DNA from: Paenibacillus sp. FSL R5-0766
Lineage (GTDB): Bacteria > Bacillota > Bacilli > Paenibacillales > Paenibacillaceae
Direction: 5' to 3'
Assembly: GCF_037971845.1 (NCBI RefSeq)
Contig: NZ_CP150227.1
Location: 5,084,001-5,148,000 of the forward strand
Length of the DNA stretch: 64,000 nt
Shown here: in pieces, positions 35,735 to 55,550 of the stretch
Layout: each line of letters starts with the position of its first letter
Position numbering within the stretch: position 1 is the first letter of the stretch
Made by a program: the position numbers and the translations under genes
The notes under the pieces: model-generated
Databases searched by the model: none
Seen by the model: the letters and a program-made list of their open reading frames with translations, nothing else
What the model was told of the DNA's origin: nothing

Positions 35735-35925
35735 AAACATAAGTTGAACAAAAGAATATTTACACTTGCCACTCCGATGACAGAATAACCTTCCGATCAC
35801 TGTTATCCCCAGATTTTTTGATTCAATATTGCAAAGGTGAAAATCTGTTGATAAAGGCGAACGCTCCACTTCTTCAAGTCTCTTCTGTCCTCTACGTTCT
35901 CGTGTAAAATATCTATTCAACTGCT
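35735..35925. repeat. MITE-like palindromic repeat, copy 1 (short form)
   Basis: It shares with the copies near 50.0, 55.1 and 55.3 kb the core ACTCCGATGACAGAATAACC, GTTATCCCCAGATTTTTTGA and TTCTGTCCTCTACG. Its ends are inverted: AAGTTGAACAAAAGAATATTTACAC-type on the left (in parts AAGTTGAAC and TTTACAC), and GTGTAAA ... ATTCAACT on the right. Bases 35926-36107 after it show no gene or motif. Confidence 0.8.
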
Positions 35926-36107
35926 AGATTTGAATATAACATTATTTTACATAATAACTGTTTATTTTCAATCCCTCTCAACTAAATCACATCTTTAGTC
36001 CTGCCCGTGGACTTGAACATTCACGACCACGCACAAGATATGGATACATACCATAATTTGGTGAAATAGGTATACTAACAAGGCTGTATTGGATGGGTTC
36101 CCAGTAA

Positions 36108-36162
36108 TAAAAAAACGCCACACCCCGGAGTAATTTCTCTCTCCAAATGGTGTGACGCCTAT
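36108..36162 (-). terminator. Terminator of the antiporter operon
   Basis: On the minus strand GGCGTCACACC pairs with GGTGTGGCG with a bulge, followed by TTTTTTTATT. Confidence 0.8.
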
Positions 36163-36212
36163 TAAGCATTACGGTGAAAATTCCCTGGCTGCCCAGGGAC
36201 AGCCGCACCGGC

Positions 36213-37418
36213 TCATCCTGTTTCCCTTCGTTTCATCCGCTTCCTTAGTCGCTCATACGATGCGTAAATCCGCGGAGATTCTTTGGTCAGGATCGGCCCC
36301 AGCACAGCCAGAATTAACACATACAACACGGCAAACGATTGGATGGATGCCATCAGCCCTCCGGCCTTGCCGATGTTTGCCATGATAATGGAGAATTCGC
36401 CCCGGGAGACCAGGGTAAAGCCCACATTCAACGAGGCCTTAGGGCTCATTCCAGCCAATCTGCCAGCAATCATACCTGCACCATAGTTACTGGCAATCGT
36501 CAGAATAACGGCAATAATCGTCATCCCAACAGCTCCGCCAAGTGAAGCCGGCTCGATGGTCAGGCCAAAACTGAAGAAGAAAATTGCACCAAAAAAATCT
36601 TTGAAAGGCATGATCTGATGTTCAATCCGACTCACATGTCTTGATTCGCCCAGCACAAGTCCCATCATCAACGCTCCAATAGCTTCCGCTACATGCAGTG
36701 TCTCCGAGAAACCAGCCACCAGGAAGAGCAGTGTCATGACGGTAAGCAGGAACAACTCTGATGACTTGATATTCAGTGCCTTATCAATATATTTGATGCT
36801 TTTCCTGCCAATAATCAGGAACAGCACAATAAACAGCAGGGCAGACAGCGATACCAGTAGAACACTTAAGAATGAAGTTGCCCCGCTGAGCACAAGCCCA
36901 GTCAGGATGGAGATATGAATCGCGATGAACAAGTCATCGAACATGATCATGCCCATGATAATCTCTGTTTCAGGGTTTGCCGTGCGTTTCAGATCAACCA
37001 GCACTTTAGCTACAATGGCTGTAGAAGAGCTGGTCATGATCCCGCAGACAACAAGTGTCTCCTGAAGGGGCAGATCCATGAACCACCCCAACAACAATCC
37101 AGAGACAAAATTCAGACCAACATAGAACATGCCCCCGGTCAGAATGGCTTTACCAGACTTTAATAAACGGGAGACCGAGAACTCCAAACCCAGATAAAAT
37201 AACAAAAACAAAATGCCAAGCCTGCCCATAAATTCAATAAAGGTCGAACTTTCGATAAAACGTAAATCCACTATGCCGATCTGTGGTGCATGTGGTCCAA
37301 CAGCCATACCAATCAGGATATAGAACGGAATGACCGAAAATCGTAATCGTGAAGATATCAGCCCAGTAAGTGTAATCAGCGCAACGGCAATTCCCACTTC
37401 GAATATGAGCATATCCAT
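36213..37418 (-). CDS. khtU: CPA2-family K+/H+ antiporter (KhtU-like)
   Basis: A 401-residue inner-membrane antiporter with about 12 helices. The family features are visible: FRLSVIPFYILIGMAVGPHAP early, LFYLGLEFSVSRL, the core helix MTSSSTAIVAKVLVDL, IMGMIMFDDLFIAIHI with the ion-binding Asp pair, and TLVSRGEFSIIMANIGKAGG. Unlike KefB it ends after the membrane part, with no attached TrkA-N domain; the regulatory TrkA-C protein is a separate upstream gene, as in Bacillus KhtTU. The start lies four bases after the KhtT stop. Confidence 0.87.
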   Translation of the reverse strand: MDMLIFEVGIAVALITLTGLISSRLRFSVIPFYILIGMAVGPHAPQIGIVDLRFIESSTFIEFMGRLGILFLLFYLGLEFSVSRLLKSGKAILTGGMFYVGLNFVSGLLLGWFMDLPLQETLVVCGIMTSSSTAIVAKVLVDLKRTANPETEIIMGMIMFDDLFIAIHISILTGLVLSGATSFLSVLLVSLSALLFIVLFLIIGRKSIKYIDKALNIKSSELFLLTVMTLLFLVAGFSETLHVAEAIGALMMGLVLGESRHVSRIEHQIMPFKDFFGAIFFFSFGLTIEPASLGGAVGMTIIAVILTIASNYGAGMIAGRLAGMSPKASLNVGFTLVSRGEFSIIMANIGKAGGLMASIQSFAVLYVLILAVLGPILTKESPRIYASYERLRKRMKRRETG

Positions 37419-37421
37419 AGG

Positions 37422-37928
37422 CTAAGTCCGTCCATCAGTCAACAATTGTTTGAGATGTTTGATCTGATTCCGTTCACCGGCAACTACAATTGTAGCCCCA
37501 GCGGTAAAAGCATAATCCGGGCCTGGATTAAAATGCTTCTCCTTATCCTTGGTCACAACAGCGAGAATTACGGCGCCCGTAGCCTGACGGATATCCAGTT
37601 CACCAATCGTCATGCCTACGCTTGCGGCGTGGGGCTCAATCCGTAGCCATTCGATTAACAGCCCTTCAAGCATCACTTCACGCTCATCCTGAAACTTCGG
37701 TTTATAGGTCATACCACCAACGATGGCGGCTACTGCCCGGGCTTCATCATCGTCCAGGGTGACAAGTGATACCATATCGCCCACCTCTTCAGGCGTATCC
37801 CCTGACTCCATATGGAACAGGTCACGTCGCTCGTCGTTATGAATCACAATGACCAAGTGCTCACCACTACGGGTATGCAGCCAGTATTTACGCCCAATCC
37901 CTGGCAAGTCTGTCTCTTTAAAGTGCAT
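37422..37928 (-). CDS. khtT: TrkA-C domain regulatory subunit (KhtT-like)
   Basis: A 168-residue cytoplasmic protein. The N-terminal half (HFKETDLPGIGRKYWLHTRS) matches the KhtT family and the C-terminal RCK-C domain (about 85-165) has GMTIGELDIRQATGAVILAV and ATIVVAGERNQIKHL, the cyclic-di-AMP or nucleotide-binding fold that gates KhtU. The ATG at 37928 follows AGGGGGTGCAGATC. It overlaps the GreA-like gene by 11 bases. Confidence 0.85.
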   Translation of the reverse strand: MHFKETDLPGIGRKYWLHTRSGEHLVIVIHNDERRDLFHMESGDTPEEVGDMVSLVTLDDDEARAVAAIVGGMTYKPKFQDEREVMLEGLLIEWLRIEPHAASVGMTIGELDIRQATGAVILAVVTKDKEKHFNPGPDYAFTAGATIVVAGERNQIKHLKQLLTDGRT

Positions 37929-38391
37929 GATCTGCACCCCCTAGGGCCGGCTCGTTCAAGGTTTCGCTCCTCAGCTCAATCCCCGTGATGCGGATTCTCA
38001 TGGAACCTGATGGTGTATGAACAGACCTAACTTCCCCTACACTGCCAAGCAGTAATTGACTCCCTACTGGAGAGAGGAAGGAAATACGCCCCTCATCAGG
38101 ATCGGTATCTTCTGGCATAACAATCATGAACGAATCTGACGTATGAAAATCGAGATATTCAAAATCAATATGACTGCCGATCAATACAGCCGAGTCCAGA
38201 TCTTCATCCGGGCCCAGGAGCAGTTTTTCCACATACTCCGTATATGCCGACAGTTGTTTTTCCAACTGTATCCGCTCTGGATCGCGCACGTCGAAATAGG
38301 CGTCGAGAAATGTTCTTTTCTCTTCACCGAATGTAAATAGCTGGCTCACCAGCTTCTCTCTGCAATTATGGCGGGAAGTCCTATGGTTCAT
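37918..38391 (-). CDS. GreA/GreB C-terminal-domain protein
   Basis: A 157-residue protein. An N-terminal helical part (about 1-60, with LDAYFDVRDPERIQLEKQL) precedes a GreA/GreB C-terminal FKBP-like domain (about 68-135: VLIGSHIDFEYLDFHTSDSF then RISFLSPVGSQLLLGSVGEV). It lacks the full GreA coiled coil with acidic tip, so it is more like Rnk or GreA-domain regulators that bind RNA polymerase. It replaces KhtS at the head of the antiporter operon. The ATG at 38391 follows AGGGGGTGAAATTTACT. Confidence 0.78.
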   Translation of the reverse strand: MNHRTSRHNCREKLVSQLFTFGEEKRTFLDAYFDVRDPERIQLEKQLSAYTEYVEKLLLGPDEDLDSAVLIGSHIDFEYLDFHTSDSFMIVMPEDTDPDEGRISFLSPVGSQLLLGSVGEVRSVHTPSGSMRIRITGIELRSETLNEPALGGADHAL

Positions 38392-38455
38392 AGTAAATTT
38401 CACCCCCTATACAAGCCTTGTTCTCCATGTTGATTGGCATGTTTCTCTTCATCAT
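38381..38455 (-). CDS. 24-residue leader ORF of the antiporter operon
   Basis: The double ATG at 38455 follows a perfect AAAGGAGG. It encodes MMKRNMPINMENKACIGG plus six residues and stops 10 bases inside the GreA-like gene. It may couple ribosomes to that gene. Too short to assign a role. Confidence 0.45.
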   Translation of the reverse strand: MMKRNMPINMENKACIGGEIYYEP

Positions 38456-40165
<1,710 letters not shown>

Positions 40166-40197
40166 TACTAAATAGGAATGATATAGAATAACTTTAA

Positions 40198-40246
40198 TCA
40201 GCAAGCGTCTCTCAGTAATCAACAGAGAAACGCTTGCTGATTTGTT
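40198..40246 (+). terminator. Terminator of gdhA
   Basis: CAGCAAGCGT-CTC pairs with GAG-ACGCTTGCTG around an 11-base loop, followed by ATTTGTTG. Confidence 0.85.
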
Positions 40247-40320
40247 GTATAAACGTTTCATCTCCAGAACAAGCTACCTTTAACGAAAAAAGATAATATT
40301 TGAATTAAAGGAGAATCACC

Positions 40321-40893
40321 ATGGACTGGATATGGAAATCCATTTTGTTAGTACTCGTAGGTATGATTCTTCTACGAATTGCAGGGCGCAAATCAATCTC
40401 ACAAATGAATGTCGCTACTACAGTCATCATGATCTCAATCGGTACAACCATTGTGCAACCTGTTGCAAATCATGAACTAGGAAAGGCAATTGGGTCAGCC
40501 ACCGTTTTTATTGCAACACTGCTCTTGGTAGAGAGACTAAAGATTAAATTTAATCTGTTCGAACAGTTATTGAGCGGAAGCTCCAAAATCGTGGTAGAGA
40601 ATGGTGAGATCAGCATCACTAATTTAAAAAAAATGCGTTACACCGTAGATCAGTTAGAAACCCAGTTACGACTAAATGGAATATCCAACCTGAGCGATCT
40701 GGAGATAGCAACATTGGAACCGAATGGCCAACTTGCCTATGCTCTAAAGCCGCACGCTCGTCCCGTCACCATGGGTGATTTGGAAAAACTGTTGGGAGGC
40801 ACTCCCAATCTAACAAATACCAATTCGAATGATATCTTTCAGGAAGTAAGTACGGGCAGTCATACGTATCCTATCGATCCCGAGCTAGAATAA
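40321..40893 (+). CDS. DUF421 (YetF/YcaP-type) membrane protein
   Basis: A 190-residue protein with three N-terminal helices (IWKSILLVLVGMILLRIAG; VATTVIMISIGTTIVQ; GSATVFIATLLLVERL) and a C-terminal cytoplasmic DUF421 domain (GSSKIVVENGEISITNLKKM, LEIATLEPNGQLAYALKP). The start follows AAAGGAGAATCACC. Bacillus relatives are sporulation-associated membrane proteins; function is otherwise unclear. Confidence 0.85.
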   Translation: MDWIWKSILLVLVGMILLRIAGRKSISQMNVATTVIMISIGTTIVQPVANHELGKAIGSATVFIATLLLVERLKIKFNLFEQLLSGSSKIVVENGEISITNLKKMRYTVDQLETQLRLNGISNLSDLEIATLEPNGQLAYALKPHARPVTMGDLEKLLGGTPNLTNTNSNDIFQEVSTGSHTYPIDPELE

Positions 40894-41038
40894 CCCTGTG
40901 CGGATATACTGATCTGCTGACCTACCATGCATGATAATTCACGAGAAAACTGATTAGAATTGCTCTAATCGCAAGGCAATGGTACAGTGGTACTGACGTA
41001 ATTACATCTATTTGTACTATTATAAGGAAGTGTTTACA

Positions 41039-41893
41039 TTGTCTAACCAACCATTTGCCAGCACTGCGAGTCCTCATCTTAGCGCAGACTGTGAGCAATG
41101 TTTTGGCCTGTGCTGTGTTGCCTTGCCCTATGGCAAGTCATCTGACTTTGCTTTTGATAAAGCCAGCGGCACACCCTGTCCCAATCTGCGCACGGACAAT
41201 CGCTGCGGTATCCATACTCAGCTTCGGCAGAAAGGGTTCAAAGGTTGCACGGTATATGACTGTTTCGGAGCTGGACAGAAGCTGTCCCAAGTGACCTACG
41301 CGGGCAAAGATTGGCGTGATCATCCAGAGTCTGCAAGCGAGATGTTCGATTGTCTGCCTGCCTTGCGACAACTTCACGAGTTGCTCAGTTATATGAAGGA
41401 AATGATGATGAGACCGGAGACGTCATCCCTTCACTCGGCATTTGGTGAGTTATATGAGGAGGTTGAGCGCTTGAGCAATCTGGAGCCTGCGGCTCTTCTC
41501 CGTCTGGACATCGCCAGTTATCGGTCCAGTGTGAATCAACTCTTGGTCCAGGCAAGTGAGATGGTACGCGCGAATGTGCCACCCACCGCTCATGGACAAG
41601 GGAAGTCGAAGAAGAGTAAAAAACGTACCGGAAGTGACTTTTTTGGTGCCAATTTAAAAGGGGCTGACCTGCGGGGCGCAAGCTTCCGAGGGGCTTTAAT
41701 GATCGCAGCCGATCTCCGAAATGCAGATACACGAAATGCGGATTGGATTGGCGCAGACTTGCGGGATACGGATCTGGGCGATGCAGACCTGAGAGGTGGC
41801 ATCTTCCTGACGCAATCCCAGATTAATGCAGCCAAAGGTAATGTGAATACCAAGTTGCCGGATCATCTTAACATTCCCTCACACTGGGTGTAG
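41039..41893 (+). CDS. Pentapeptide-repeat protein with N-terminal cysteine cluster
   Basis: A 284-residue protein. The TTG at 41039 follows AAGGAAGTG and gives SNQPFASTASPHLSADCEQC as N-terminus. A cysteine-rich region (CEQCFGLCC, PCPNLRTDNRCGIH, CTVYDCFGAG) resembles YkgJ-type metal-binding modules. A helical middle is followed by a basic linker (GKSKKSKKRTG) and about ten pentapeptide repeats (FFGANLKGADLRGASFRGAL onward), a short right-handed beta-helix as in Qnr-like proteins. The fusion is seen in several Firmicutes but has no assigned role. Confidence 0.82.
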   Translation: MSNQPFASTASPHLSADCEQCFGLCCVALPYGKSSDFAFDKASGTPCPNLRTDNRCGIHTQLRQKGFKGCTVYDCFGAGQKLSQVTYAGKDWRDHPESASEMFDCLPALRQLHELLSYMKEMMMRPETSSLHSAFGELYEEVERLSNLEPAALLRLDIASYRSSVNQLLVQASEMVRANVPPTAHGQGKSKKSKKRTGSDFFGANLKGADLRGASFRGALMIAADLRNADTRNADWIGADLRDTDLGDADLRGGIFLTQSQINAAKGNVNTKLPDHLNIPSHWV

Positions 41894-41990
41894 GATGCCT
41901 TTTCCACAAGAGCACGAGCAGGGATACAGGCAGGATTATACCTGCTAATTCATATGAATGTATGAATCGTGTACAGCAACAGCCAAAAAA

Positions 41991-42027
41991 AACAGCTCGT
42001 CCTGTACATCCAAGGACGAGCTGTTTG
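41991..42027. terminator. Bidirectional terminator
   Basis: AACAGCTCGTCCT pairs with AGGACGAGCTGTT around a 9-base loop, with A- and T-runs outside. It serves the converging pentapeptide and ddh genes. Confidence 0.9.
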
Positions 42028-42055
42028 TTATACAAATCACTGGAACGAATCAGAA

Positions 42056-43033
42056 TTATAACAAGTCGCGGCGAAGATCTTCAGCCGATTTCGGAGACAA
42101 GTGACCGAGCGGAATATCAAATACCGTTTTCGCTCCCTTATGTCCTTCCACGCTCAAGCGTTGTGCGGCTCTTGCATACGCTACAAGTACGCTTGCTGTA
42201 AATTCAGGATTGCTGTCGAGTTTCAGACCAAATTCAATAATTTGCTTTTGACCCGCACCCGTAACCCCACTGCGAATTACAAATCCACCATGCGGCATAC
42301 CTTCATGCTCGGATTTCAATTCTTCTTCGCTAATGAACGTTACAGTTGTATCGTAATCTGCAAAGTAGTTAGGCATCGACACAATCGTCTCACGGATCTC
42401 ATCCTGATTAGCACCATCTTCTGCTACCACATAACATTGACGCAGATGTTTCTCACGTGTAGACAACTCTGGTGTCTCCCCTGCACGAATGCGGTTGATC
42501 ACCTCTTCAACAGGTACAGTATACTGTACACCCGCCTTAACGCCTGGAACACGACGAATAGCATCCGAGTGGCCTTGGCTCACACCTTTGCCCCAGAACG
42601 TGTACTCTTTTCCTTCTGGCAGGATGGACTGTGCAAGCAGACGGTTCATGGAGAACAAGCCTGGGTCCCAACCTGTGGAAATGACACTTACGTGACCGCC
42701 TTGCTCTGCCGCAGCATTAACTTCCTTGTAGAATTCAGGAATCTTCGCATGTGTATCGAAGCTATCTACCGTATTGAACAATTTGGCGATGGCTGGTGTC
42801 TGCTCTGGAAGGTCGGTTGCAGAACCACCACAGAGGATCATAACATCAATCTTGCCTATGTATTGCTCCGCTGCAGAGATATGCTCAAAACGTACTTCTG
42901 TGCTTTCAGCGACCATCTGCTCCGGATTACGACGTGTAAACACAGCAATCAGTTCCAGATCCTCGTTCTGGGAAATGGCTTTCTCTACACCTTTACCCAA
43001 GTTACCGTAACCAACAATACCCACTCTAATCAT
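42056..43033 (-). CDS. ddh: meso-Diaminopimelate dehydrogenase
   Basis: A 325-residue NADPH enzyme that makes meso-diaminopimelate in one step for lysine and peptidoglycan. IRVGIVGYGNLGKGVEKAI is the dinucleotide fold; ILCGGSATDLPEQTPAIAK, FDTHAKIPEF and STGWDPGLFSMNRLL with GKGVSQGHSDAIRRV form the substrate pocket. Length matches the Corynebacterium/Bacillus enzyme. The ATG at 43033 follows GGAGAGGATTGAAC. Monocistronic. Confidence 0.95.
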   Translation of the reverse strand: MIRVGIVGYGNLGKGVEKAISQNEDLELIAVFTRRNPEQMVAESTEVRFEHISAAEQYIGKIDVMILCGGSATDLPEQTPAIAKLFNTVDSFDTHAKIPEFYKEVNAAAEQGGHVSVISTGWDPGLFSMNRLLAQSILPEGKEYTFWGKGVSQGHSDAIRRVPGVKAGVQYTVPVEEVINRIRAGETPELSTREKHLRQCYVVAEDGANQDEIRETIVSMPNYFADYDTTVTFISEEELKSEHEGMPHGGFVIRSGVTGAGQKQIIEFGLKLDSNPEFTASVLVAYARAAQRLSVEGHKGAKTVFDIPLGHLSPKSAEDLRRDLL

Positions 43034-43131
43034 GTTCAATCCTCTCCTGTCTTCTTCTATAGTTGTCTATTACTCTGTTTATAATGATATAACATACCAT
43101 GTAACCTGTCAGGTTTCCAGTTCGAAATAAA

Positions 43132-43181
43132 AATACCTTGCAGCGGTGCAGCAATAATGCGGCTCCGTATGCAAGGTATTA
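43132..43181 (-). terminator. Terminator of the lipoprotein gene at 43247
   Basis: AATACCTTGCA pairs with TGCAAGGTATT around a 27-base loop and is followed by TTTTATTT on the minus strand. Confidence 0.7.
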
Positions 43182-43246
43182 TGGCGTTCATTCGTTATTT
43201 TAGGAAGGCAGAAAGCAGGAAAGAAAAATAGCCCCTTATCTTCTGC

Positions 43247-43825
43247 TTATGATTCTGTCCAGGTCAACGTCAGTTCAATGACGCCTTCCTGTCCCGCCAA
43301 TGTTCCTCCAATCAAGGACCAGACATCCTGCGTTTCCGGATCGGTTCCCTGAATGATAATATTTTTGTCATCGATCGTCTGACCTGCATCCGTTAACTTT
43401 TTGGCGTTGAAGTAATCTTTATACAGCTGGGATACGGTTTTCATATCTTGTTCAGTGGAGAAAATCACCATGGCCGATTGCTTGCCTTCATTCTCACCAG
43501 AATTGGCTAAACGAATCGTTGCATCTTCCGGCAATGGGAAATCACTTGGCAAGTTCTCCGGCAACTCATTGGTTCCAGCAGCGGCTTCCTCACCACGATC
43601 TGAATCCGAGTCGGCTGGCGCAGTCGTACCCTCCGTCTCGATCACTTCACTTGTTGTTGCTTCGCTTGCACCTTCATTAGTCGCTTGTTCATTAGTTCCG
43701 GAGGAAACTTCGGTGTCCACCTTCTCCGTATCACTAGGTTCGTCTGCCGCGCTGCTGCAAGCACTCAAGGCCACCATCATCGCCAGTGCCGCACAGGCCA
43801 ATACATATTTCCTTCTCTTCACCAT
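43247..43825 (-). CDS. Lipoprotein with acidic linker, unknown function
   Basis: A 192-residue lipoprotein. The signal VKRRKYVLACAALAMMVALS ends in lipobox LSAC. A Thr/Glu/Asp-rich linker (about 25-85) precedes a small domain (about 88-190) starting LPENLPSDFPLPEDATIRLA and continuing with a VIFSTEQDMKTVSQLYKDYF helix. The start follows AAGGAGTGGTAACGG. No family recognised. Confidence 0.78.
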   Translation of the reverse strand: MVKRRKYVLACAALAMMVALSACSSAADEPSDTEKVDTEVSSGTNEQATNEGASEATTSEVIETEGTTAPADSDSDRGEEAAAGTNELPENLPSDFPLPEDATIRLANSGENEGKQSAMVIFSTEQDMKTVSQLYKDYFNAKKLTDAGQTIDDKNIIIQGTDPETQDVWSLIGGTLAGQEGVIELTLTWTES

Positions 43826-43857
43826 CCGTTACCACTCCTTCATCTTCATTTTATGTG

Positions 43858-44004
43858 CTAATCTCGTTCAAACGGCTGGATCACAGGCACGGCATGAACG
43901 TTATTCTTAACCCATATCACAGATACAGATAATACACTTAAAGACAATAGACAACTGGCTACGAGAATGGACAAGAAGCGGGTGATTACTTTAAACTTTT
44001 TCAT
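43858..44004 (-). CDS. Small membrane protein downstream of a hydrolase
   Basis: A 48-residue protein with a basic head (MKKFKVITR), one helix (FLSILVASCLLSLSVLSVSV) and a short outer tail. The start at 44004 is preferred because GGAGGAGGGATGG precedes it. The frame is open to an ATG at 44058 that overlaps the hydrolase stop as ATGA, so a longer form with an acidic head is possible. Function unknown; it is co-transcribed with the hydrolase. Confidence 0.55.
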   Translation of the reverse strand: MKKFKVITRFLSILVASCLLSLSVLSVSVIWVKNNVHAVPVIQPFERD

Positions 44005-44054
44005 CCATCCCTCCTCCTCATCCTGTTCATCATGTGTTTGTGGGGTCATGTTAC

Positions 44055-45038: not shown

Positions 45039-45174
45039 CTTCTCTACCCCTTACCCCAAAGGTTCATCTATATATGTATGCTTCAATCGTACCCAAGAAA
45101 TAGCGGGATTGAAACAATCCCGAGTCCAGTTCTTTCCCCAACCAAAGTCCAGTGCCCCTCCCCTACCTGTAACG

Positions 45175-45215
45175 CAAAAAAAACTGCAAATCTCCCATTC
45201 AGGAAACTTGCAGTT
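45175..45215 (-). terminator. Terminator of the exoA gene
   Basis: On the minus strand AACTGCAA pairs with TTGCAGTT around an about 20-base partly paired loop, followed by T8. Confidence 0.75.
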
Positions 45216-45267
45216 GATCTATACTTGTATTCTAAAACTCTTACCTCAATCTATCTCACGATGATCC

Positions 45268-46026: not shown

Positions 46027-46136
46027 ATCCTCATCTCCTCACATCTCTCCAATATAGCACGGGCCCATTCTGGGGGACAAGCCTTACGGATTTGGGATGA
46101 GATGGAGTCATTGGAATCCTGATGGGGCGAGCTTGC

Positions 46137-46694: not shown

Positions 46695-46748
46695 GCGAGG
46701 TCTCCTTTGCAACATTCATTATATAAATCATTTTACTATTAATATGTT

Positions 46749-46800
46749 CTATTAACATCTCTCTCTTCTCTATAAGATGTTCTATTGACTATTAAAAGTA
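46749..46800. promoter_or_regulatory. Direct repeats upstream of the flavin oxidase gene
   Basis: TATGTTCTATTAAC (about 46749) and GATGTTCTATTGAC (about 46786) are near-identical repeats spaced about 37 bases apart, upstream of the gene at 46859. The second ends in a TTGAC that could be its -35. Confidence 0.35.
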
Positions 46801-46858
46801 GGGAGACTACATTATGCTTTAGAAGACTAACATTGGAAATAGACTAGGAGGCGGAACC

Positions 46859-47995
46859 ATGACCACACCATCATATGACGTTATTATCGTTGGAGCCGGC
46901 TCCATGGGTATGAGTGCTGGGTATTATCTATCGCGCAGTGGATGCAAAACTTTATTAATTGATGCCTTTGACCCTCCGCATACGGAAGGAAGTCATCACG
47001 GGGATAGCAGACTGATGCGCCATGTGTACAGTGGTGGGCCTGACTATATTGCCATGGCATTACTTGCACAGAAGTTATGGCACGAGCTGGAGGAAACGAC
47101 CGGAGACCAACTGTTTGTTCCTTCCGGTGTAATAAATGTGGTTGATCCAGAGATTCATTCCTTCCACAACCGATTGAGCCATGCAGATGATGCAGGTATT
47201 CGGTATGAAACGTTGCACGCAGCCGAGGTGATGAAACGCTGGCCAGGTATTACAATACCTGAACATTACGAGGGCATGTATGAGCCTGATGCGGGTTATC
47301 TGTATAGTGAACCCTGTATTCGTGCCTTCCGCAAAGCAGCCGAGACTCACGGTGCCACCTTGTTAACGCACACGCTTGTGGAGCATATCGAATACGGACC
47401 ACATTCCGTTGCAGTTCAGACTTCAGGTGGTGAGACATACCATGCCAACCAAATCATCCTGAGCGCTGGCGCCTGGTTTCAGACATTAAAACCTTTCGTG
47501 GATCTCCCGATCCAGGCAGTGCGTAAAACGGTTGGATGGTTTGATGCACCACAAGCTTTGTACGGCGAGGCACACTTCCCCGGTTTTACACTGGCGGGAA
47601 AAGAAGGTACATATTATGGATTTCCAAGCATTGGCGGATCAGGTCTGAAGATGGGTCGTCATGATACGGGTCAGGTGTGGACACCAGGAAGTACAATGGC
47701 TCCATTTGGTACGGAAGAAACGGACGAGGGGGATCTGCGCAGGCTGCTCGAACTTCATATGCCTCAGGCAGCAGGAGAATTGAAACGTGGTAGTGTGTGC
47801 AAGTATGAATTCACTTCGGATGAAGATTTTATTATCGACCGACACCCTGCCCATGAACGTGTGTGGCTCGCAGGCGGTTTCTCCGGTCATGGCTTCAAGT
47901 TTGCAAGTGCCATTGGGCAGATTCTATCCGACTTGGTGCAAACAGGGCACACGGATCAGGATATTAGCAGGTTCGCCTTATCCCGTTTTCGTTAA
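46859..47995 (+). CDS. Monomeric sarcosine / N-methyltryptophan oxidase-type flavoprotein
   Basis: A 378-residue flavoenzyme that oxidises a secondary amine such as sarcosine or N-methyl amino acids, releasing formaldehyde and peroxide. YDVIIVGAGSMGMSAGYYLS is the FAD fold, GSHHGDSRLMRHVYSG the substrate-side motif, and the Cys in GSVCKYEFTSDEDFIIDRHP is the covalent flavin attachment site of MSOX/MTOX enzymes. The start follows AGGAGGCGGAACC. MSOX and MTOX cannot be told apart here. Confidence 0.87.
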   Translation: MTTPSYDVIIVGAGSMGMSAGYYLSRSGCKTLLIDAFDPPHTEGSHHGDSRLMRHVYSGGPDYIAMALLAQKLWHELEETTGDQLFVPSGVINVVDPEIHSFHNRLSHADDAGIRYETLHAAEVMKRWPGITIPEHYEGMYEPDAGYLYSEPCIRAFRKAAETHGATLLTHTLVEHIEYGPHSVAVQTSGGETYHANQIILSAGAWFQTLKPFVDLPIQAVRKTVGWFDAPQALYGEAHFPGFTLAGKEGTYYGFPSIGGSGLKMGRHDTGQVWTPGSTMAPFGTEETDEGDLRRLLELHMPQAAGELKRGSVCKYEFTSDEDFIIDRHPAHERVWLAGGFSGHGFKFASAIGQILSDLVQTGHTDQDISRFALSRFR

Positions 47996-48022
47996 GTGAT
48001 GAACATATGTATATCTAAAATA

Positions 48023-48078
48023 GCTACTTTCCTTGAGGGTGCAGTGTTGCTTAGAGCACTGCACCTCCAAGAAAGTAG
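48023..48078. terminator. Long hairpin between converging genes
   Basis: CTACTTTC-TTGAGG-TGCAGTG pairs with CACTGCA-CCTCCAA-GAAAGTAG around a 10-base loop. T-runs are short on both sides, so termination strength is uncertain. Confidence 0.6.
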
Positions 48079-48113
48079 GACATATAATAACGTTTAATTC
48101 ATGCGTACTCACA

Positions 48114-49958
48114 CTAATTAACTTTGACTAGGCTCCATTGCTGATTGGCTCCGCCATTGTCGGCCCACTGAATCGTGGAGGCACCTGCGGTCAAAGAACC
48201 CTGATTGATGTCAACCGTCAGGCCACTGTTTCGATTCGCAAGTACCACATATCCTCCCACATCAATTGGCAGCCATTGCTGATTGTTGCCCCCGTTATCC
48301 TGCCATTGAATCAGAGCGGCTCCGCCTTGTGTGGAACCCGAATTCACATCCAGCAAAAGCCCACTGCCCACATTGCGGATGTTGTAATATCCGTTACCTG
48401 CGGACTCCAGCTTCCACTGCTGGTTGGCTGCTCCATTATCATTCCACTGAATGATTGTTGCCCCACCCGTAGAAGAAGCACCGTTAACATCGAGTGCAAG
48501 TCCACTATTGCGGTTGATTAATTTGTAGATGGCCCCGGATTCATATCCTGTACCGCCATTGTAAGTTGCACCGGAAATGACGTAGGTTGTGACCGAATTG
48601 GCCTTGGCCGTAGCGGTAAAGGTTTTGTTTTGCACCGAAATATTGGTCAGTTGCTGCAACTTCTCCGTTGAAGAGGTCCGATATACTTGAGCAGACGTGC
48701 CTGTGTTCGTAAAACGACTGAGATCATAGGTTACCGTTGTATCCGTCGATTCCGAATTGGTTGTAACCAGTACTACTTTGCCGGAAGCTGCATCATAGGC
48801 TGCAAGGGTATTGGCATCACTCATGCCGATAATCTTGTACCCAGGACGAATAAATTTGCTGTAATTGCCCATGACATAATATTTTTGGTTCACGGTGTAA
48901 CTGGTCGTTTGTGTATTGTTCAACACGTTCTTGAAAAATCCCCATCCTTCTGCACTATCGACGGCTTGCCAATACACCCATCCACTTGCGCCCATATTGC
49001 GAATATCCTTGAGGATAGTCCGTGACATCGTAAGACCGCTTGCATCCCCATCTCCATATTCCGAGGTCCACAGATGTTTGCCCGCAGACGTCGCTGTGTT
49101 ACGCAAAGCAGTACGATTGCTGCCGCCATACGTATGGGTGTTAATCTGAGTGATCGCTGATTTAACCGCATTGCTGTAGCTGTTGAACGACACATTGGTA
49201 TCATCGATACTGTATTCTTCTGGTGCGCTCAGCTTTGTGGACAGGCCCTTTGCATTCAACGAAGCTTGTACCTGACTCAGAATGGTGTTCTGATCCGCCC
49301 GGTCAAAGTGCATGCCCTCCTGGTCATTGCCCTGCTTCCACCACGTCGAGATCGGTTCATTTAGCGGAGTTACACTATCAAATGTGATCCCCCAGTTATC
49401 CCGAAAATGCTTCACAACCTCGGTTAAGTAATCAGCAAAATCATCGTAGTAATCGGGCTTGAGGTTGTTCCCACCATTGGCCGAACCGGACACATTACCA
49501 CTGATCGTCATCCAGTATGGTGCGGAATTCGCAAAGGCTTCGATAACATTCACACCTTGCGCTTTGGCAGCTTGCAGCATATATCGTTGGTTTGCATCTG
49601 CATTCCAGTCATACACGCCGGGAGAAGGCTGGTAACCAGGAACGGCTTTGCGATATTCGAGGATATTGGATGATGGATTATCTCCGCCTCCAATGTTGTA
49701 CCGCAGGATGTTCAGTCCCAGTCCGGTATTTGCATTGAACATTTTCTCCACATACTCATCCCGATTGGAATATTCTCCAACCACTTTGCCCCACCACGCG
49801 AGGGATGTTCCCCAGCCTTCCATCGTCTGATATTGTTTCGATGGATCGGCAACAGCCGTGTAGGCTCCTGCAGCAGATACCTCTGTACCAAGTCCCAAAC
49901 TGCCTGTTAGCAGACTTCCTGCCAGCAGCAGCGAGCTCATTCGTTTTAACCACTTCAT
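48114..49958 (-). CDS. Secreted GH30 endo-beta-1,6-galactanase with CBM13
   Basis: A 614-residue secreted enzyme. The ATG at 49958 follows AAGGAGTGAAGCGG; signal peptide to about residue 30 (LGTEVSAAGAYTAV). The GH30 domain (about 35-460) has GWGTSLAWWGKVVG, acid/base E201 in VTPLNEPISTWW and nucleophile E300 in LWTSEYGDGD. Its sequence follows the Streptomyces GH30_5 endo-beta-1,6-galactanase closely (ANSAPYWMTISG, YDDFADYLTEVVKHFRD). Three ricin-type QxW repeats (about 475-614) form a galactose-binding CBM13. It likely cleaves beta-1,6-galactan branches of arabinogalactan proteins. Confidence 0.9.
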   Translation of the reverse strand: MKWLKRMSSLLLAGSLLTGSLGLGTEVSAAGAYTAVADPSKQYQTMEGWGTSLAWWGKVVGEYSNRDEYVEKMFNANTGLGLNILRYNIGGGDNPSSNILEYRKAVPGYQPSPGVYDWNADANQRYMLQAAKAQGVNVIEAFANSAPYWMTISGNVSGSANGGNNLKPDYYDDFADYLTEVVKHFRDNWGITFDSVTPLNEPISTWWKQGNDQEGMHFDRADQNTILSQVQASLNAKGLSTKLSAPEEYSIDDTNVSFNSYSNAVKSAITQINTHTYGGSNRTALRNTATSAGKHLWTSEYGDGDASGLTMSRTILKDIRNMGASGWVYWQAVDSAEGWGFFKNVLNNTQTTSYTVNQKYYVMGNYSKFIRPGYKIIGMSDANTLAAYDAASGKVVLVTTNSESTDTTVTYDLSRFTNTGTSAQVYRTSSTEKLQQLTNISVQNKTFTATAKANSVTTYVISGATYNGGTGYESGAIYKLINRNSGLALDVNGASSTGGATIIQWNDNGAANQQWKLESAGNGYYNIRNVGSGLLLDVNSGSTQGGAALIQWQDNGGNNQQWLPIDVGGYVVLANRNSGLTVDINQGSLTAGASTIQWADNGGANQQWSLVKVN

Positions 49959-49974
49959 CCGCTTCACTCCTTAT

Positions 49975-50187
49975 CATTTTACACTTGCACTCCGATGTCA
50001 GAACAACTTTCCGATCGCTGTTATCCCCAGATTTTTTTAATTATTCTCTAAAAGGGGAAAATCCGGGGATAGCATATGCTTCCGATGCAGCTTTCTTTCA
50101 GAAAGCTTTTAGGCGCACGCTTCGCTTCTTCAAGTTATTTCTGACCTCTCCGTTATCGTGTAAATGTATAGTTTAACTTAGAAAATA
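49975..50187. repeat. MITE-like palindromic repeat, copy 2 (long form)
   Basis: It has TTTACAC and GTGTAAA near its ends and the shared core (CACTCCGATGTCAGAACAAC, GTTATCCCCAGATTTTT, AAAATCCGGGGATAGC). The long form adds about 35 bases with GCTTTC and GAAAGC arms. It fills almost the whole gap between the GH30 and GH43 genes. Confidence 0.82.
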
Positions 50188-50195
50188 AACACCTA

Positions 50196-51542
50196 TTATT
50201 GTGCAACCTCTCTGAAGGTCGCGTCTGACTTATCTAGTGCAGTAACGACAGCTTCCAATTTCAGCACATTATTGTAATGTCTCAGATACAGGTTCGGGTT
50301 ACTAAACGATGCATACGATGTCCAGCTGGCATTAGCAAGTCCATTTACACGTTTGAATGTGGCGTCATTTCGGAATGTAGCGCTGCCGTCATTTTTCACA
50401 AGTGTAATGTTGCCATTATTATTGCGCAGGAAATAACCCGGATAATTCATAGACTCAAACGAAATGCCTGTTGCATTTGACAGCCCGGGAACGATACGGA
50501 ATTGTGCATCTTCCGCCGGACTGACATTGGCATCAATCCGTGCCTGATAGTTGTAGTGACGAATGAAACTGCCAGGTACATTGAATGACTCCAGCTTGCG
50601 GATATCACCCAGTTGTCCGGATTCTTTCAATACAGTCATATGCCGAACGAGTCCGGTAAGACCTGCAATCTCTTGTTTGGCACCCCAAGTCTGGAAGTTG
50701 TCAGCAGAGTCGCTGTAATAATATTTTTGTGTTGCATAGCCGTCAAAGTAGATTCGCCATGAACCATTATCCAGCTGAACAAGCGCCGGGCCTTCCACCC
50801 AAGAACCCCAACCTGCCCAATCCCCTGTACCTTTAAAGGTATAAGGACCCGTTAGCGAAGTGGATGTCGCATATTCAATGTATTTGGTGGTCTCGTTCTT
50901 GGTAAAAGCATGATAGGTTGAGCCTGTCTTCACGATAAAAGTGTCGATATAATTGGGAGCAATGCCTGCCAGTTCAGTAGGTGCAGACCATGAGGTAGAT
51001 GTTAGATTACTACCTGAAGCTGTGAGTACATAAGGTTTGAAATTCTGATAGTTTCCTGGTGAGAGGGACACGATAATGTTCAGACTGCCGTTGCTGTCTT
51101 TAAACCATTCTGGTGCCCAGGTGTGTGCGATTGTGGTCGGTGTGGATAATGTAATGTTACGGACAAATGTCCAGTTTACCTTATCCGGGCTGGAGGCAAT
51201 GCCGATGGTGTTACCCGACCAGTTCGTGGTGTAAACAACGTAATATAGACCATCTGTGTGCTTCATGATGCTGGGATCGCGGATCAGATCGGCCGGAGGT
51301 GTATAGGCTGGCCCTTTCAGCAAACTATAGTGGGTCGCATTATACGATTCATAGATATACATATTGGACTCACTTGTGTTCGTAAAGGCGGATATCGTAT
51401 AAACACTTGTCGCTGCTCTGGCTGTATTGGGGAATAACATCGTTAATAGAAGCAATGTTCCGAGCAGCAGAATCATTCCGGCCTTGAAACCGCTGGACTT
51501 TTCTACTCCTATTCCTATCCCCTCTTCCGTCTTCGTCAACAT
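50196..51542 (-). CDS. Secreted GH43 arabinofuranosidase with AbfB (CBM42) domain
   Basis: A 448-residue secreted enzyme. The start follows AAGGAGATGACCCA; a signal anchor (GMILLLGTLLLLTMLFPNTA) ends near ARAATS. The GH43 five-blade propeller (about 48-310) shows the base Asp in LIRDPSIMKHTDGLYYVVYT, IAHTWAPEWFKDSNG with a conserved Asp, and the acid Glu in GSWVEGPALVQL. The AbfB module (about 320-448) has HYNYQARIDANVSPAEDAQF and repeats NYPGYFLRNNNG. This domain order matches GH43_26 exo-alpha-1,5-arabinofuranosidases. It likely strips arabinose from arabinogalactan or arabinan. Confidence 0.85.
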   Translation of the reverse strand: MLTKTEEGIGIGVEKSSGFKAGMILLLGTLLLLTMLFPNTARAATSVYTISAFTNTSESNMYIYESYNATHYSLLKGPAYTPPADLIRDPSIMKHTDGLYYVVYTTNWSGNTIGIASSPDKVNWTFVRNITLSTPTTIAHTWAPEWFKDSNGSLNIIVSLSPGNYQNFKPYVLTASGSNLTSTSWSAPTELAGIAPNYIDTFIVKTGSTYHAFTKNETTKYIEYATSTSLTGPYTFKGTGDWAGWGSWVEGPALVQLDNGSWRIYFDGYATQKYYYSDSADNFQTWGAKQEIAGLTGLVRHMTVLKESGQLGDIRKLESFNVPGSFIRHYNYQARIDANVSPAEDAQFRIVPGLSNATGISFESMNYPGYFLRNNNGNITLVKNDGSATFRNDATFKRVNGLANASWTSYASFSNPNLYLRHYNNVLKLEAVVTALDKSDATFREVAQ

Positions 51543-52036
51543 TGGGTCATCTCCTTATCCATGATTAAATGGAATAATTAATTAGACTTAACATACCCTA
51601 TGGCAGAATACACGTTATCTTGGAGTCAACCTCTATAGACACACCTTACGACTACCTGTTCAAATTCCAATTACATGAAGCATCACTCCCTTCACAGATC
51701 ATGGATGAACACTCTTTATATATGTAAACGTTTACAAATAATCGTGCCACAAATGTTCCCTCTGCTTATTGCACAAACCTGATTACCACAGTTCCCCATC
51801 CCCTTAGCCGAACTCACTCCCAAGACCGAATCCCAAGATTCACAAACCCAGGTCAATCTGGCTAAGAAAATGAGGGGGTAAAACTGCGGTAAAAATAAAC
51901 TTTTGCGTTATGTGTTGCTATTTTCTAGTCCTGGTCCATTACAATAAATGGCTGCTTCAAACTCGAACGATCTCGTTCCAGTCATCGCTCCCTTGCATCT
52001 CTAAATCAATAAGACAGCTAAAGATCAATACATGAG
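51543..52036. other. 494-bp gap with cre site between GH35 and GH43 genes
   Basis: It should hold the GH43 promoter and the GH35 3' end. Apart from the cre at 51723 and the inverted repeat GAACGA-TCTCGTTC-type near 51967-51980, no gene, terminator or other repeat was recognised. Confidence 0.4.
51723..51736. promoter_or_regulatory. Perfect cre (CcpA) site upstream of GH43
   Basis: TGTAAACGTTTACA is fully palindromic and matches the CcpA consensus TGWAANCGNTNWCA at every position. It lies about 180 bases upstream of the GH43 start, predicting glucose repression. A LacI-family regulator could also bind it. Confidence 0.7.
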
Positions 52037-55000
52037 CTACTTCACCACAACCCATGGATAACGGGATGGCCCATCTAAAAGAAAACGTACACGTTCTGGT
52101 GTTTTACCTTCTTCATCGAACAAAAGTAATTCATTCTCTTCCTGTAGCCAGGCTACAGGGATCTTGTAATCCTCTTGCGGACCAATCTGCCAGTAACGAC
52201 CCAGATGATGTCCGTTCAAGTGGATGGTTCCTTTGCTCATCCCAGTCAGGCGAAGCATCAAGTTCACCTTATGATGCTCGGAAAGGGTAGGCTTGGTGAA
52301 ACGCCAGCGGTACCAAACGGGCTGACCGTACGAGTCTTGTGCTCGGAGGGTACCAGATGTAGAGTGAGCCTTCTCGCTCACCATAACACTTGAGATCCCA
52401 TCGTCCGAGGTAACGGTCACCAGATTGGCAGTACAATTGCCACCTGAGGCGATACCAGGCTGTCCTGCACGCTGGATTGATCCCTGTCCAGGATGGAGCG
52501 CTTCCTGTTCTACCTCGTATCTCTCCCATTGTTGGGGAAGCAATGCATCCGTCCCTGCCATACGCCAATCCTTCAGTTCGCCCTGACTTGGATACGTGAT
52601 CAGTTCCAGTCGATTCAGTAATGAACGGCTATACGGCATTTCCAGTGTATTCGTCTCTCCGGGCTTGATATACAGAGATATGTCTAACGTCTGGAAGGCA
52701 AACCAATCCTGATATCCCTCCATCGGAACTTCGATGCCATTGATACAAAGACCTTTGCTCAAGGCACCCACAAGAATCGCGCGATCCATGCCATCCAGCT
52801 TAAAGCTCCTGCTGATACGTGGCGCCCCATGTATAGCGTTCACCTCATCGAGATGCACAAGTCCACTCTCCATACGCCAATCCCGACGAATATCCTGAAC
52901 CTTGCCATCCAGATACACAGCACCAGCCAGACCTTTGCTCTCACCCAAATACGGGGAGAAGTTCAATCTGCCCATATGCTGCACCAGAATCTGAAGTGTA
53001 TTCTTCCCTTTGGCCACCTGCAACTGCACTCCAGCGGCACCTACCTGACGCACTAATGCCTGCTGAACACCATTAACGATGATTCTGGCGGTATCCTGGA
53101 TATCCGACAGAATGAGACTCGTAATTCCTTCGGTTGGACTTTCGAAATCGCATTCGTACAATAGATAACCAAAATCTTGTCCATACCGGGAGAAGTCTTC
53201 CGGTTGTCCACTCGCCGAGCGTTGCTTCGCAGTTAACGTAATACGTGACAGCTCAGGAGAATCAGATAACGTCGGTGCACTCGGCGATGTCCATGGAAGC
53301 TGCTGCTGTATACCTGCAATAGACTCCTCGCTGGCATAGAACTCGTGACCTGTGAACGTCCGTTCTCCATCGGCCCAGTCACCAAGCTGCGTAATTGTCC
53401 GATCCGGATCAGTGATCATGCCTTTGACCTCGCCGGATGGCAATACGTCTACATCATCGAAGCCTATTGCATAACGAAGTCCCTTCTGTTCTGTTGCTTC
53501 CAATCGCCATGTTCGATTCGTCGTTTCTTGATCTAGAATCATGAAACGGATCGGTGTGCCGTTTGCTTCCAGTTGGATTGTTCCCGGTTCTTGGAAATGA
53601 AACAGATCGAAGCGGTATACGTTCCTTGCTGAATCATGCTCGACCAGCACTTGCACTGTACTGCCCGTGACATTCAATACGCCGGCTTCCAGTTCAACAA
53701 CAGAACGCTGTCCCGCAGCGGCCACGATGAACAGGGTTAATTCTCCGTTTATCATTTCATTGCCCGTAATCATCGTACCCGCAGTCAGGTATACGTGTTC
53801 AGCAATCTGTACTCGATCCAGCAACGGAACAATCTGTCCTGGATTCACCGATACGGGAAGAGTACGGCCTTCCTCCAGCGTAATGTGCATCGTCTCCCGT
53901 TCATCCTTGTGACTCTCCAGGAACCAAATCTTCTGGTTGTCAGCCTGTCTGCCTCGCACAGATATGCCTTCAGGATGACGTACAACAATCTGTTCTTCTG
54001 GAATTTCCTCTGTTTCCATCAGAAGGGCCCCGAAAGCATGGACGAAATAGGACAAATTCTTGGTTATTGCATACTTCGGTGTCACCCGTCCATATTCGTT
54101 CAGGGGTGCATCATAGTCATAGGACGTAATCATGAAAATATCACTGCTACCCATCGTTCTGCCGCCATATCCACCAAAGTTCGTGCCACCATAGAACATG
54201 TAGTGACTGATTCCGGTATACCCGGCACGCAGAATCTCCATGATACGTCTCTCCAGCAAAGGCGCTGTCTTCTGAATGGCTGAAGGTCCTCCCCAATTCT
54301 CAAACCATCCGGTCCAGAATTCCGTGACCATCTTCGGGGTGTCCGGCTGTTTGGCTCGGAGTTTCTCATAATGCCCGTCAGCACCTGACCAGAAATTAGC
54401 CCCTTCAATTGTGCCTTCCGCCCCGCCAACGCAAGTGATCAGCGTAGCGTCAATGCCACGTTGCAACAATCCATCCCTCAGCCTATTCATATGGTCACTT
54501 GCAGCAGCGTCATCCATCAAATACCCGTACTCATTCTCCACCTGCACGAGAATGACCGTACCCCCGGCAGACAGCTGGCGTTTCCGAATGATCGGCACAA
54601 GCTGGTCAAAATACAAATTCACATAGTGCAGATACGTCTCATTGTTTTCCCGGAATTTCACGCCGTCCTTCGTACCAAGCCAGTATGGAAAACCGCCAAA
54701 ATCCCATTCTGCACAGATAAACGGACCCGGACGCGCGATGACCCACATGCCCAGTTCCGCGCACAAATCCAGAAATGCTCCGCAATCGTTGTCCCCTTCA
54801 AAGGACCACTGTCCTTCTTCCGGTTCATGCACATTCCACGCAAAGTAGGTGTCGATGCAGTTCATACCTGCCAGCTTCGCCTTCAGCAGAACCTCACGCC
54901 ATTCTTCCTTCGGCATACGGAAATAATGGATCGTGGCACTGTTCAGAAATACACGCTCTCCGTTTAGGAAAAAGCTGCGTGCATCGTATGTTAATTCAGA

Positions 55001-55072
55001 TTGAACACCGTTCTCAGCCCTGGCGATGTTCTTCTCCTGTTCCTGCAGCAAAAGGGATGCTTTCTCTGTCAA
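52037..55072 (-). CDS. GH35 beta-galactosidase
   Basis: A 1011-residue enzyme without signal peptide, so cytoplasmic. The TTG at 55072 follows GGAGGGGATTACT. The GH35 barrel (about 30-350) has SATIHYFRMPKEEWREVLLK, RPGPFICAEWDFGGFPYWL, acid/base E181 in VQVENEYGYL and nucleophile E251 in MVTEFWTGWF. Several jelly-roll domains follow (about 500-1010), including GH35-typical sandwiches with LNGHHLGRYWQIGPQ. It would split galactose from oligosaccharides imported by the ABC system. Two palindromic repeats separate it from the upstream GH30 gene. Confidence 0.93.
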   Translation of the reverse strand: MTEKASLLLQEQEKNIARAENGVQSELTYDARSFFLNGERVFLNSATIHYFRMPKEEWREVLLKAKLAGMNCIDTYFAWNVHEPEEGQWSFEGDNDCGAFLDLCAELGMWVIARPGPFICAEWDFGGFPYWLGTKDGVKFRENNETYLHYVNLYFDQLVPIIRKRQLSAGGTVILVQVENEYGYLMDDAAASDHMNRLRDGLLQRGIDATLITCVGGAEGTIEGANFWSGADGHYEKLRAKQPDTPKMVTEFWTGWFENWGGPSAIQKTAPLLERRIMEILRAGYTGISHYMFYGGTNFGGYGGRTMGSSDIFMITSYDYDAPLNEYGRVTPKYAITKNLSYFVHAFGALLMETEEIPEEQIVVRHPEGISVRGRQADNQKIWFLESHKDERETMHITLEEGRTLPVSVNPGQIVPLLDRVQIAEHVYLTAGTMITGNEMINGELTLFIVAAAGQRSVVELEAGVLNVTGSTVQVLVEHDSARNVYRFDLFHFQEPGTIQLEANGTPIRFMILDQETTNRTWRLEATEQKGLRYAIGFDDVDVLPSGEVKGMITDPDRTITQLGDWADGERTFTGHEFYASEESIAGIQQQLPWTSPSAPTLSDSPELSRITLTAKQRSASGQPEDFSRYGQDFGYLLYECDFESPTEGITSLILSDIQDTARIIVNGVQQALVRQVGAAGVQLQVAKGKNTLQILVQHMGRLNFSPYLGESKGLAGAVYLDGKVQDIRRDWRMESGLVHLDEVNAIHGAPRISRSFKLDGMDRAILVGALSKGLCINGIEVPMEGYQDWFAFQTLDISLYIKPGETNTLEMPYSRSLLNRLELITYPSQGELKDWRMAGTDALLPQQWERYEVEQEALHPGQGSIQRAGQPGIASGGNCTANLVTVTSDDGISSVMVSEKAHSTSGTLRAQDSYGQPVWYRWRFTKPTLSEHHKVNLMLRLTGMSKGTIHLNGHHLGRYWQIGPQEDYKIPVAWLQEENELLLFDEEGKTPERVRFLLDGPSRYPWVVVK

Positions 55073-55102
55073 AGTAATCCCCTCCTTCTCTGTATTTTAT
55101 AT

Positions 55103-55293
55103 AAATTGAACTAACGATTATTTACACTGTACACTCCGATGACAGAACAACCTTCCGATCGCTGTTATCCCCAGATTTTTTGAATTCCCTTTTCTCAAAG
55201 GGAAAATCCGGGGATAAAGGCGAACGCTCCGCTTCTTCAGGTCCTTTCTGTCCTCTCCGTTTGGTGTAAATGTTTAGTTCAATTTATATAGGT
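55103..55293. repeat. MITE-like palindromic repeat, copy 3 (short form)
   Basis: The terminal inverted repeats are clearest here: ATTGAACTAA, four bases, then TATTTACAC on the left, against GTGTAAATG then TTTAGTTCAAT on the right. The core is as in the other copies, without the 35-base insert. Confidence 0.85.
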
Positions 55294-55321
55294 TCATATG
55301 TCCTGTAATCTTTTAAAAATA

Positions 55322-55546
55322 TGAGTTCAACTAATGAATGTTTACACTGGCACTCCGATGACAGAATAACCTTTCAATCGCTGTTATCCCCAGATTTTTT
55401 GATTCCCTTTTCTCAAAGGGAAAATCCGGGGATAGCGTATGCTTTCGATGTAGCTTTCTTGCAGAAAGCTTGTAGGCGCACGCTCCGCTTTTTCAGGTTT
55501 TTTCTGTCCTCTCCGTTTTCTGTGTAAATCTGTAGTTGAACTTATA
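55322..55546. repeat. MITE-like palindromic repeat, copy 4 (long form)
   Basis: Long form as in copy 2, including AGCTTTCTTGCAGAAAGCTT inside. Ends GAGTTCAACTAATG...TTTACAC and GTGTAAATCTGTAGTTGAAC. It follows copy 3 after only about 30 bases and ends just before the GH30 stop at 55551. Confidence 0.85.
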
Positions 55547-55550
55547 TTCC

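Follow-up and report, generated by a model that had tools for sequence, protein, structure and literature searches.

A candidate class of structured RNA, probably spread as a miniature transposable element in Paenibacillus

Four copies of a palindromic intergenic repeat at and beside an arabinogalactan locus of Paenibacillus sp. FSL R5-0766 raise the question of whether such a repeat is a mobile DNA element or a hairpin of the surrounding mRNAs. The 64,000-nucleotide window analysed here spans positions 5,084,001–5,148,000 of a single 7.0-Mb contig, and all four of the copies originally predicted were found in their places, aligning as one family. The original prediction had offered a miniature inverted-repeat transposable element (MITE) and an mRNA hairpin as alternatives; judged from sequence comparisons, the two may both apply, as the body appears to be a conserved one-strand structure oriented with genes. 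Our best reading is that the repeat represents a new structured RNA class that spread in this genome as a MITE. Its molecular job is something we infer, and we consider it probable that a conserved structured RNA, likely acting in the mRNAs of its neighbours, was likely spread within the genus by an IS630-type transposase.

The predicted fold has three parts around a conserved junction: P1, the long outer stem; P2, a mini-hairpin of two pairs; and a further stem, P3. Its conserved 5′ segment is about GGAGAAGCGAAGCGUUCGCCUUUGU and its conserved 3′ segment about ACAACAGCGAUCGGAAG; its sense strand is the reverse complement of the strand used in the original prediction. An alignment of 34 diverse copies made with MAFFT without structure (A4) contains two-sided compensatory changes in 25 of 33 pairs, the sequences having been hand-chosen for diversity and the structure drawn from A4 itself, with P2 added by the author. 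All 12 pairs of P1 and 12 of the 19 pairs in the two helices of P3 change on both sides. Two-sided cells number 156, compared with 42.1 after shuffling (0 of 500 shuffles reach the observed value), and 92.7% of cells are paired versus 79.1% in shuffled and 37–52% in slid alignments. An alignment of 79 copies that was fitted to the model (A3) gave 98.7% of cells paired, two-sided changes in 12 of 16 pairs, and 73 two-sided cells versus 10.2 shuffled. Covariation thus exceeds the controls on an alignment not fitted to structure, as expected of a structured-RNA class. At the gathering threshold, Rfam returned no family match in the window and only the neighbouring RNase P RNA in 20 further loci. 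The sense strand of copy 4 matched DUF3800-V RNA (RF02964) over its full length at 18.3 bits, below the cut-off of 37.4 (E 1.1 and 0.37); this RNA gave no match in L055 or eight further loci, nor did it reach gathering level in any of 20 loci, and the match is treated as chance.

Wobble pairs indicate which strand is folded. Across 99 copies from the own genome, with the core used for their selection excluded, body pairs have changed 78 times to G-U and 16 times to A-C on the sense strand (18 versus 1 when counted by pair, favouring G-U, with 9 ties), whereas pairs of the IS630-type ends show 26 against 20 such changes (difference from the body, p 0.0017). Unpaired transitions are without clear strand bias (C>U 55/869, G>A 119/1541, A>G 232/3414, U>C 126/1730). 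With the G-U excess in body pairs, little difference in the end pairs and no clear strand difference among unpaired bases, the body, and not the transposon end, appears to be kept as a one-strand fold. Cruciform DNA is disfavoured as the selected form, since the wobble changes favour one strand. A first count of 117 versus 58 was biased by the exact-core choice of copies; without core pairs it became 104 versus 36.

The same strand follows the genes. For the orientation count, 121 own copies were reduced by 7 under 60 bits and 4 near the end of a stretch, leaving 110, of which 3 lie inside open reading frames (ORFs; called mechanically as the longest ORFs of at least 80 codons). At 67 of 74 tandem sites in the own genome (p 2e-13), and at 57 of 66 in named relatives (95 sites classified, 27 at edges or inside ORFs), this strand has the same sense as the two flanking genes. 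A replication-strand signal, suggested by a raw split that looked replichore-linked, was rejected: the 17 convergent own sites divide 8 versus 9, and seven lagging-strand tandem pairs are 5 sense versus 2 antisense. Convergent sites are not enriched (17/107 versus 55/273 in the background, p 0.38). Gene direction explains most of the strand split. At own tandem sense sites the downstream start lies a median of 34 bases away, which leaves little room for a separate promoter.

How far the body extends was followed with a covariance model (R1) built from 42 cores (alignment A1), drawn from 81 de-duplicated cores. R1 matches 144 of 198 genomes of the order and 25 of 43 genera, the own genus included, with at most the best 22 candidates per genome scored; E-values of R1 and of a further model, R2, are rough. 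Copy counts range from 1 to 72 in 20 genomes of 20 genera, picked among those already matching R1 and with up to 150 candidates scored in each. IS630-type ends were not seen in distant copies, whether in a consensus of 50 copies from three genomes or at ten loci inspected by eye; these copies differ in their outer stem, and their stems pair although the sequence is different. Copies in G130, of another genus, end in a different inverted repeat, GAGGCCACTGAAAAA, which occurs with at most one mismatch at 73 places there and at 1, 0, 2 and 0 places in four other genomes of that genus. At G130 loci L390–L409 and L430–L459 the RNA core sits within GAGGCCACTGAAAAA repeats, and some copies have lost P3 and kept the arms (L439). 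Copies in G184 and G100 have no clear terminal repeat. Four ORFs beside two isolated GAGGCCACTGAAAAA-type ends in G180, considered as a transposase for this second type of end, proved not to be transposases. Of 398 genomes in the phylum, R2 matches 7, every one from the own family, and none of the other 391 (best 8 candidates per genome scored). Spread by phages or plasmids was rejected, with 0 matches in phages and a single match of 47% coverage in a 2.7-Mb Paenibacillus record among plasmids.

Within the own genome the family is large. When up to 3 mismatches are allowed, a 20-base core occurs 193 times, 108 in forward and 85 in reverse orientation, and its reversed-pattern control not once, so the further copies sought as a check on the MITE proposal do exist. 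In stretches fetched mostly by exact core, nhmmer found 121 distinct copies, 88 of which reach both model ends. The element is about 165–230 bp long, contains no transposase gene and falls into two main length classes, as had been proposed: 26 long and 73 short in 99 full-type copies, differing by an AGCTTTC/GAAAGCT block of ~38 nt. The family consensus is TATATAAGTTGAACTAAA-(5)-TTTACAC ... GTGTAAA-(2)-TTTAGTTCAACTTATATA, where the TATATAAGTTGAACTAAA ends are perfect inverted repeats, and information content falls to background directly beyond it. A scan of named genomes with a 23-base core hit at least 120 stretches, and the 80 titles among the matches listed are all Paenibacillus. Two ~38-nt modules stand in tandem at G000 C1:1604801-1605066, L240 6661-6927, L206 6065-6332 and L236 4171-4380. 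Some own copies and loci L054–L058 of relatives have the same core with another outer stem and without IS630 ends.

The terminal repeats point to a transposase. DDE_3 (IS630) matches were found in 21 of 75 genomes of the genus and not in the own genome, where the family therefore looks orphaned. At 5 of 30 DDE_3 loci examined, from four genomes, the repeat's own outer 20 bases, TATATAAGTTGAACTAAAGA, stand at both ends with 17–20 of 20 bases; these five elements span 1166–1171 bp, DDE_3 was confirmed in one (L283), and their comparison with the repeat concerns the ends only. The best place at most remaining loci scores 12–14 of 20. Seven loci (L263, L266, L272, L273, L277–L279) reach 15–19 at one end, and some of these resemble more distantly related ends of this type. 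IS630 transposase frames at DDE_3 loci are often split or carry a stop, a possible sign that the genus is losing its source transposase; L262, L267, L283 and L284 have matching IS630 ends and a transposase that is spread over two ORFs or contains a stop. The suggested transposase search thus succeeded in four related genomes and failed in the own genome.

The target site agrees with this origin. Empty sites, also proposed as a check, were compared in 12 rows, of which 3 had unclear ends, 3 were clean and the others were too diverged; TA is duplicated exactly in two of the three clean sites (L036, L170) and the third is off by one base. Ends could be scored in 55 of 99 copies; at 80 of these 110 ends TATATAAG is preceded by C, versus 20% C in the flanks. 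IS630 prefers CTAG targets. Matching ends, TA duplication and a C-preceded, CTAG-like target make it likely that the repeat in this genus is an IS630-type MITE by history, and in that respect the original prediction is supported.

Orthologous sites in relatives preserve intermediate states. For the copy 1 site, 18 relatives were searched, 12 fetched and 9 aligned; the copy is full in G033 and G024, and the 7 others retain an identical right-end remnant. G024 (L299) carries a ~38-nt block at the site orthologous to window 35735–35925, which other species have without it. Copies with and without a block share one orthologous site, so such a module is gained, exchanged or lost at the site itself, perhaps through gene conversion. 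The tandem arrangement of copies 3 and 4 had been taken as a sign of recent activity, which is not supported: copy 4 is a truncated remnant in L032 and L034, although the entire stretch is matched in G026 and G008, and DDE_3 matches are absent from the own genome.

The features of the window are as follows (glycoside hydrolase, GH; strand, where given, is the sense strand).
34979–35695: expansin EXLX1 gene beside copy 1
35737–35925, minus: copy 1, short class, flanked by the antiporter and expansin genes
35790–35876, minus: RNA core of copy 1 (conserved junction and P3), included in alignment A1
36213–37418: KefB/CPA2-like antiporter gene beside copy 1
48114–49967: GH30 plus ricin-B gene beside copy 2
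49977–50181, minus: copy 2, long class, having lost its left outer terminal repeat, in the gap between the GH43/AbfB and GH30 genes
50072–50110, minus: optional ~38-nt hairpin module (AGCTTTC/GAAAGCT) in copy 2
50196–51542: GH43/AbfB gene beside copy 2
52037–55072: GH35 gene downstream of copy 3
55098–55290, minus: copy 3, short class, two outer ends present, upstream of the GH35 gene
55152–55239, minus: RNA core of copy 3, R1 match at G000 5139152-5139239
55320–55547, minus: copy 4, long class, in tandem with copy 3, downstream of the GH30 gene
55434–55472, minus: optional ~38-nt hairpin module in copy 4
55551–57053: GH30 gene upstream of copy 4

All four copies are sense to genes. Shared terminal inverted repeats, as described originally, need some correction: three of the four left ends carry a form of AGTTGAACTA, and in copy 2, which occupies most of the gap between its two genes, TTTACAC adjoins the gene start and the left outer repeat is gone. 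The right outer repeat of copy 1 is present in degenerate form (TATTCAACT). Copy 3 has terminal arms at 55098–55119 and 55269–55290 and scores 126.4 bits with R2 (55132–55259). The reported association with carbohydrate genes is roughly correct in the window (expansin, GH43/AbfB, GH30, GH35); it is not a property of the family, which is spread along the whole chromosome. Two other repeats were observed: three units ~140 bp apart at 48135–48464 inside the GH30 gene, probably ricin-B lectin repeats, and a strong 21-bp inverted repeat at 40196–40242 (5-base loop, 90% complementary), which does not belong to the family and is possibly a terminator.

Several results weigh against the structured-RNA reading. 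Own copies resemble one another only slightly more than flanking non-coding DNA does (medians 0.947 versus 0.935), and a first conservation test (38 higher versus 12 lower, p 0.0012) was biased by the exact-core choice, the effect shrinking once the core was masked (44 higher and 18 lower of 67, p 0.026). The evidence for P2 is a single covarying pair, which changes from GC to AU in 3 of the 34 copies. For all pairs outside the core, G-U exceeds A-C not only in tandem-sense copies (66 versus 19) but also in the others (38 versus 17), so that the bias may partly reflect source copies and not each site. Sites in relatives are partly orthologues of own sites and the copies are related, so the orientation counts are not independent; three distant genomes show a weak bias in orientation (14 versus 5 of 19 tandem sites), and 7 of 50 copies there lie inside called ORFs. 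The slight excess of conservation over the flanks, together with the IS630-matching ends, TA duplication, CTAG-like target and decayed copies in relatives, is what an ordinary IS630-derived MITE of the RUP or Correia kind would lead one to expect, its palindrome serving solely as transposase substrate with no host role and its orientation bias reflecting antisense harm. We nevertheless regard this as rather unlikely, because the body matches in 25 genera, the distant copies examined pair with different sequence and show no such ends, and the wobble bias affects the body but spares the transposon ends. RUP and BOX are, moreover, over-represented between convergent genes according to the accessible part of PMC3049150, which is not the case here.

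The wobble bias would also suit a single-stranded DNA hairpin acting as mobile substrate (REP/IS200- or attC-like), in which one DNA strand folds and G-T pairs are tolerated as well. The own genome has one Y1_Tnp (IS200-like) gene, and the leading strand is favoured at the 16 divergent own sites, 12 versus 4, which leaves some doubt about gene direction as the explanation. Tandem orientation tracks genes even in the lagging-strand pairs, however, and convergent sites are evenly split. The sole Y1_Tnp match (G000 C1:879577-879933, L460) has no element within 1.5 kb, unlike the flanked gene of a REP/BIME system with RAYT. Copies in the genus have terminal inverted repeats and TA duplications, neither of which Y1 enzymes are known to generate; altogether we find a DNA hairpin very improbable. 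Just as doubtful is a promoter or terminator carried by the element that happens to lie upstream of genes and so accounts for orientation. Copies 2 and 3 do have a promoter-like sense-strand match close to their downstream ends, but such matches are near shuffle expectation (1 versus 0.4; 1 versus 0.9), the −10 part falls within a poorly conserved linker, and the distant copies examined are without the downstream end. No intrinsic terminator (GC stem followed by a T run) was found over copies 2, 3 and 4, with copy 1 outside the scan.

Comparison with known repeats helps to place the structured-RNA reading. RUP of Streptococcus pneumoniae has IS630-type ends and duplicates TA. Correia elements of Neisseria use a TA target; their ends and body differ from those of the present repeat, and we know of no order-wide covarying core in them. 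The sequence of bcr1 from the Bacillus cereus group differs as well. RUP resembles our repeat as a small intergenic palindrome with a predicted RNA fold, and the accessible part of PMC3049150 reports that its orientation follows coding bias, with 60.9% on the leading strand, and that convergent gene pairs are enriched for it, and describes no RNA body common to several genera; the present repeat, in contrast, is sense in 67/74 tandem sites and not enriched at convergent ones. BOX of S. pneumoniae is likewise modular and structured with an optional middle block, and is transcribed in some operons (PMC3049150, in part); it is set apart by description, as the present repeat has a hairpin insertion for its optional block and a core with matches in 25 genera. 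In the Gram-positive bcr1, a ~150-nt structured repeat, the likeness is again one of kind, and the title of a paper cited in the accessible part of PMC2267715 calls it specific to the Bacillus cereus group. Literature searches, with most subscription journals outside their coverage, found no publication recognisable as being on this repeat, and it is not mentioned in the accessible parts of PMC3049150, PMC2267715, PMC10969869, PMC11109978, PMC8632094 and PMC5670726.

We propose a mechanism in which an IS630-type transposase likely acted on the terminal repeats and spread the element within the genus; the body would be co-transcribed as a leader or intercistronic spacer. The sense-strand fold might then be bound or cut by a host factor, through RNase III-type cleavage or by a dedicated RNA-binding protein, and this could set mRNA processing or stability of both neighbouring cistrons. 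Precedents for such host-factor action are the cleavage of Correia transcripts by RNase III (PMC10969869) and the RNase effects of ERIC (PMC3049150), both as given in the accessible parts of those papers. Wrongly oriented copies would lose function or do harm and then be eliminated. On this view the RNA is likely the older, conserved unit, around which the IS630 ends form a local jacket. As a more tentative possibility, the RNA could be a selfish or semi-domesticated module older than its carriers, which moved through the order by swapping transposon jackets and planted the same folded mRNA element in hundreds of operons; the jackets would be IS630-type ends in Paenibacillus and GAGGCCACTGAAAAA-type ends in one genome of another genus, with no clear ends elsewhere. 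That the second terminal repeat was seen in one genome only counts slightly against this extension and against the main reading alike.

Were this extension true, a regulon spread by a transposon would be read by a single RNA-binding protein or RNase of the host. Rfam 15 has no entry for this structured RNA, which has ~190 copies in one genome and matches in 25 genera. The repeat separates two usually mixed features of bacterial repeats, namely DNA-like decay of the transposon ends and RNA-like evolution of the body. How a small repeat turns into an mRNA element becomes testable, since sequenced relatives already offer sites with and without the element as well as copies in flipped orientation. 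At the arabinogalactan locus, transcripts would likely contain the fold in the gaps that precede GH35, GH30 and the expansin gene.

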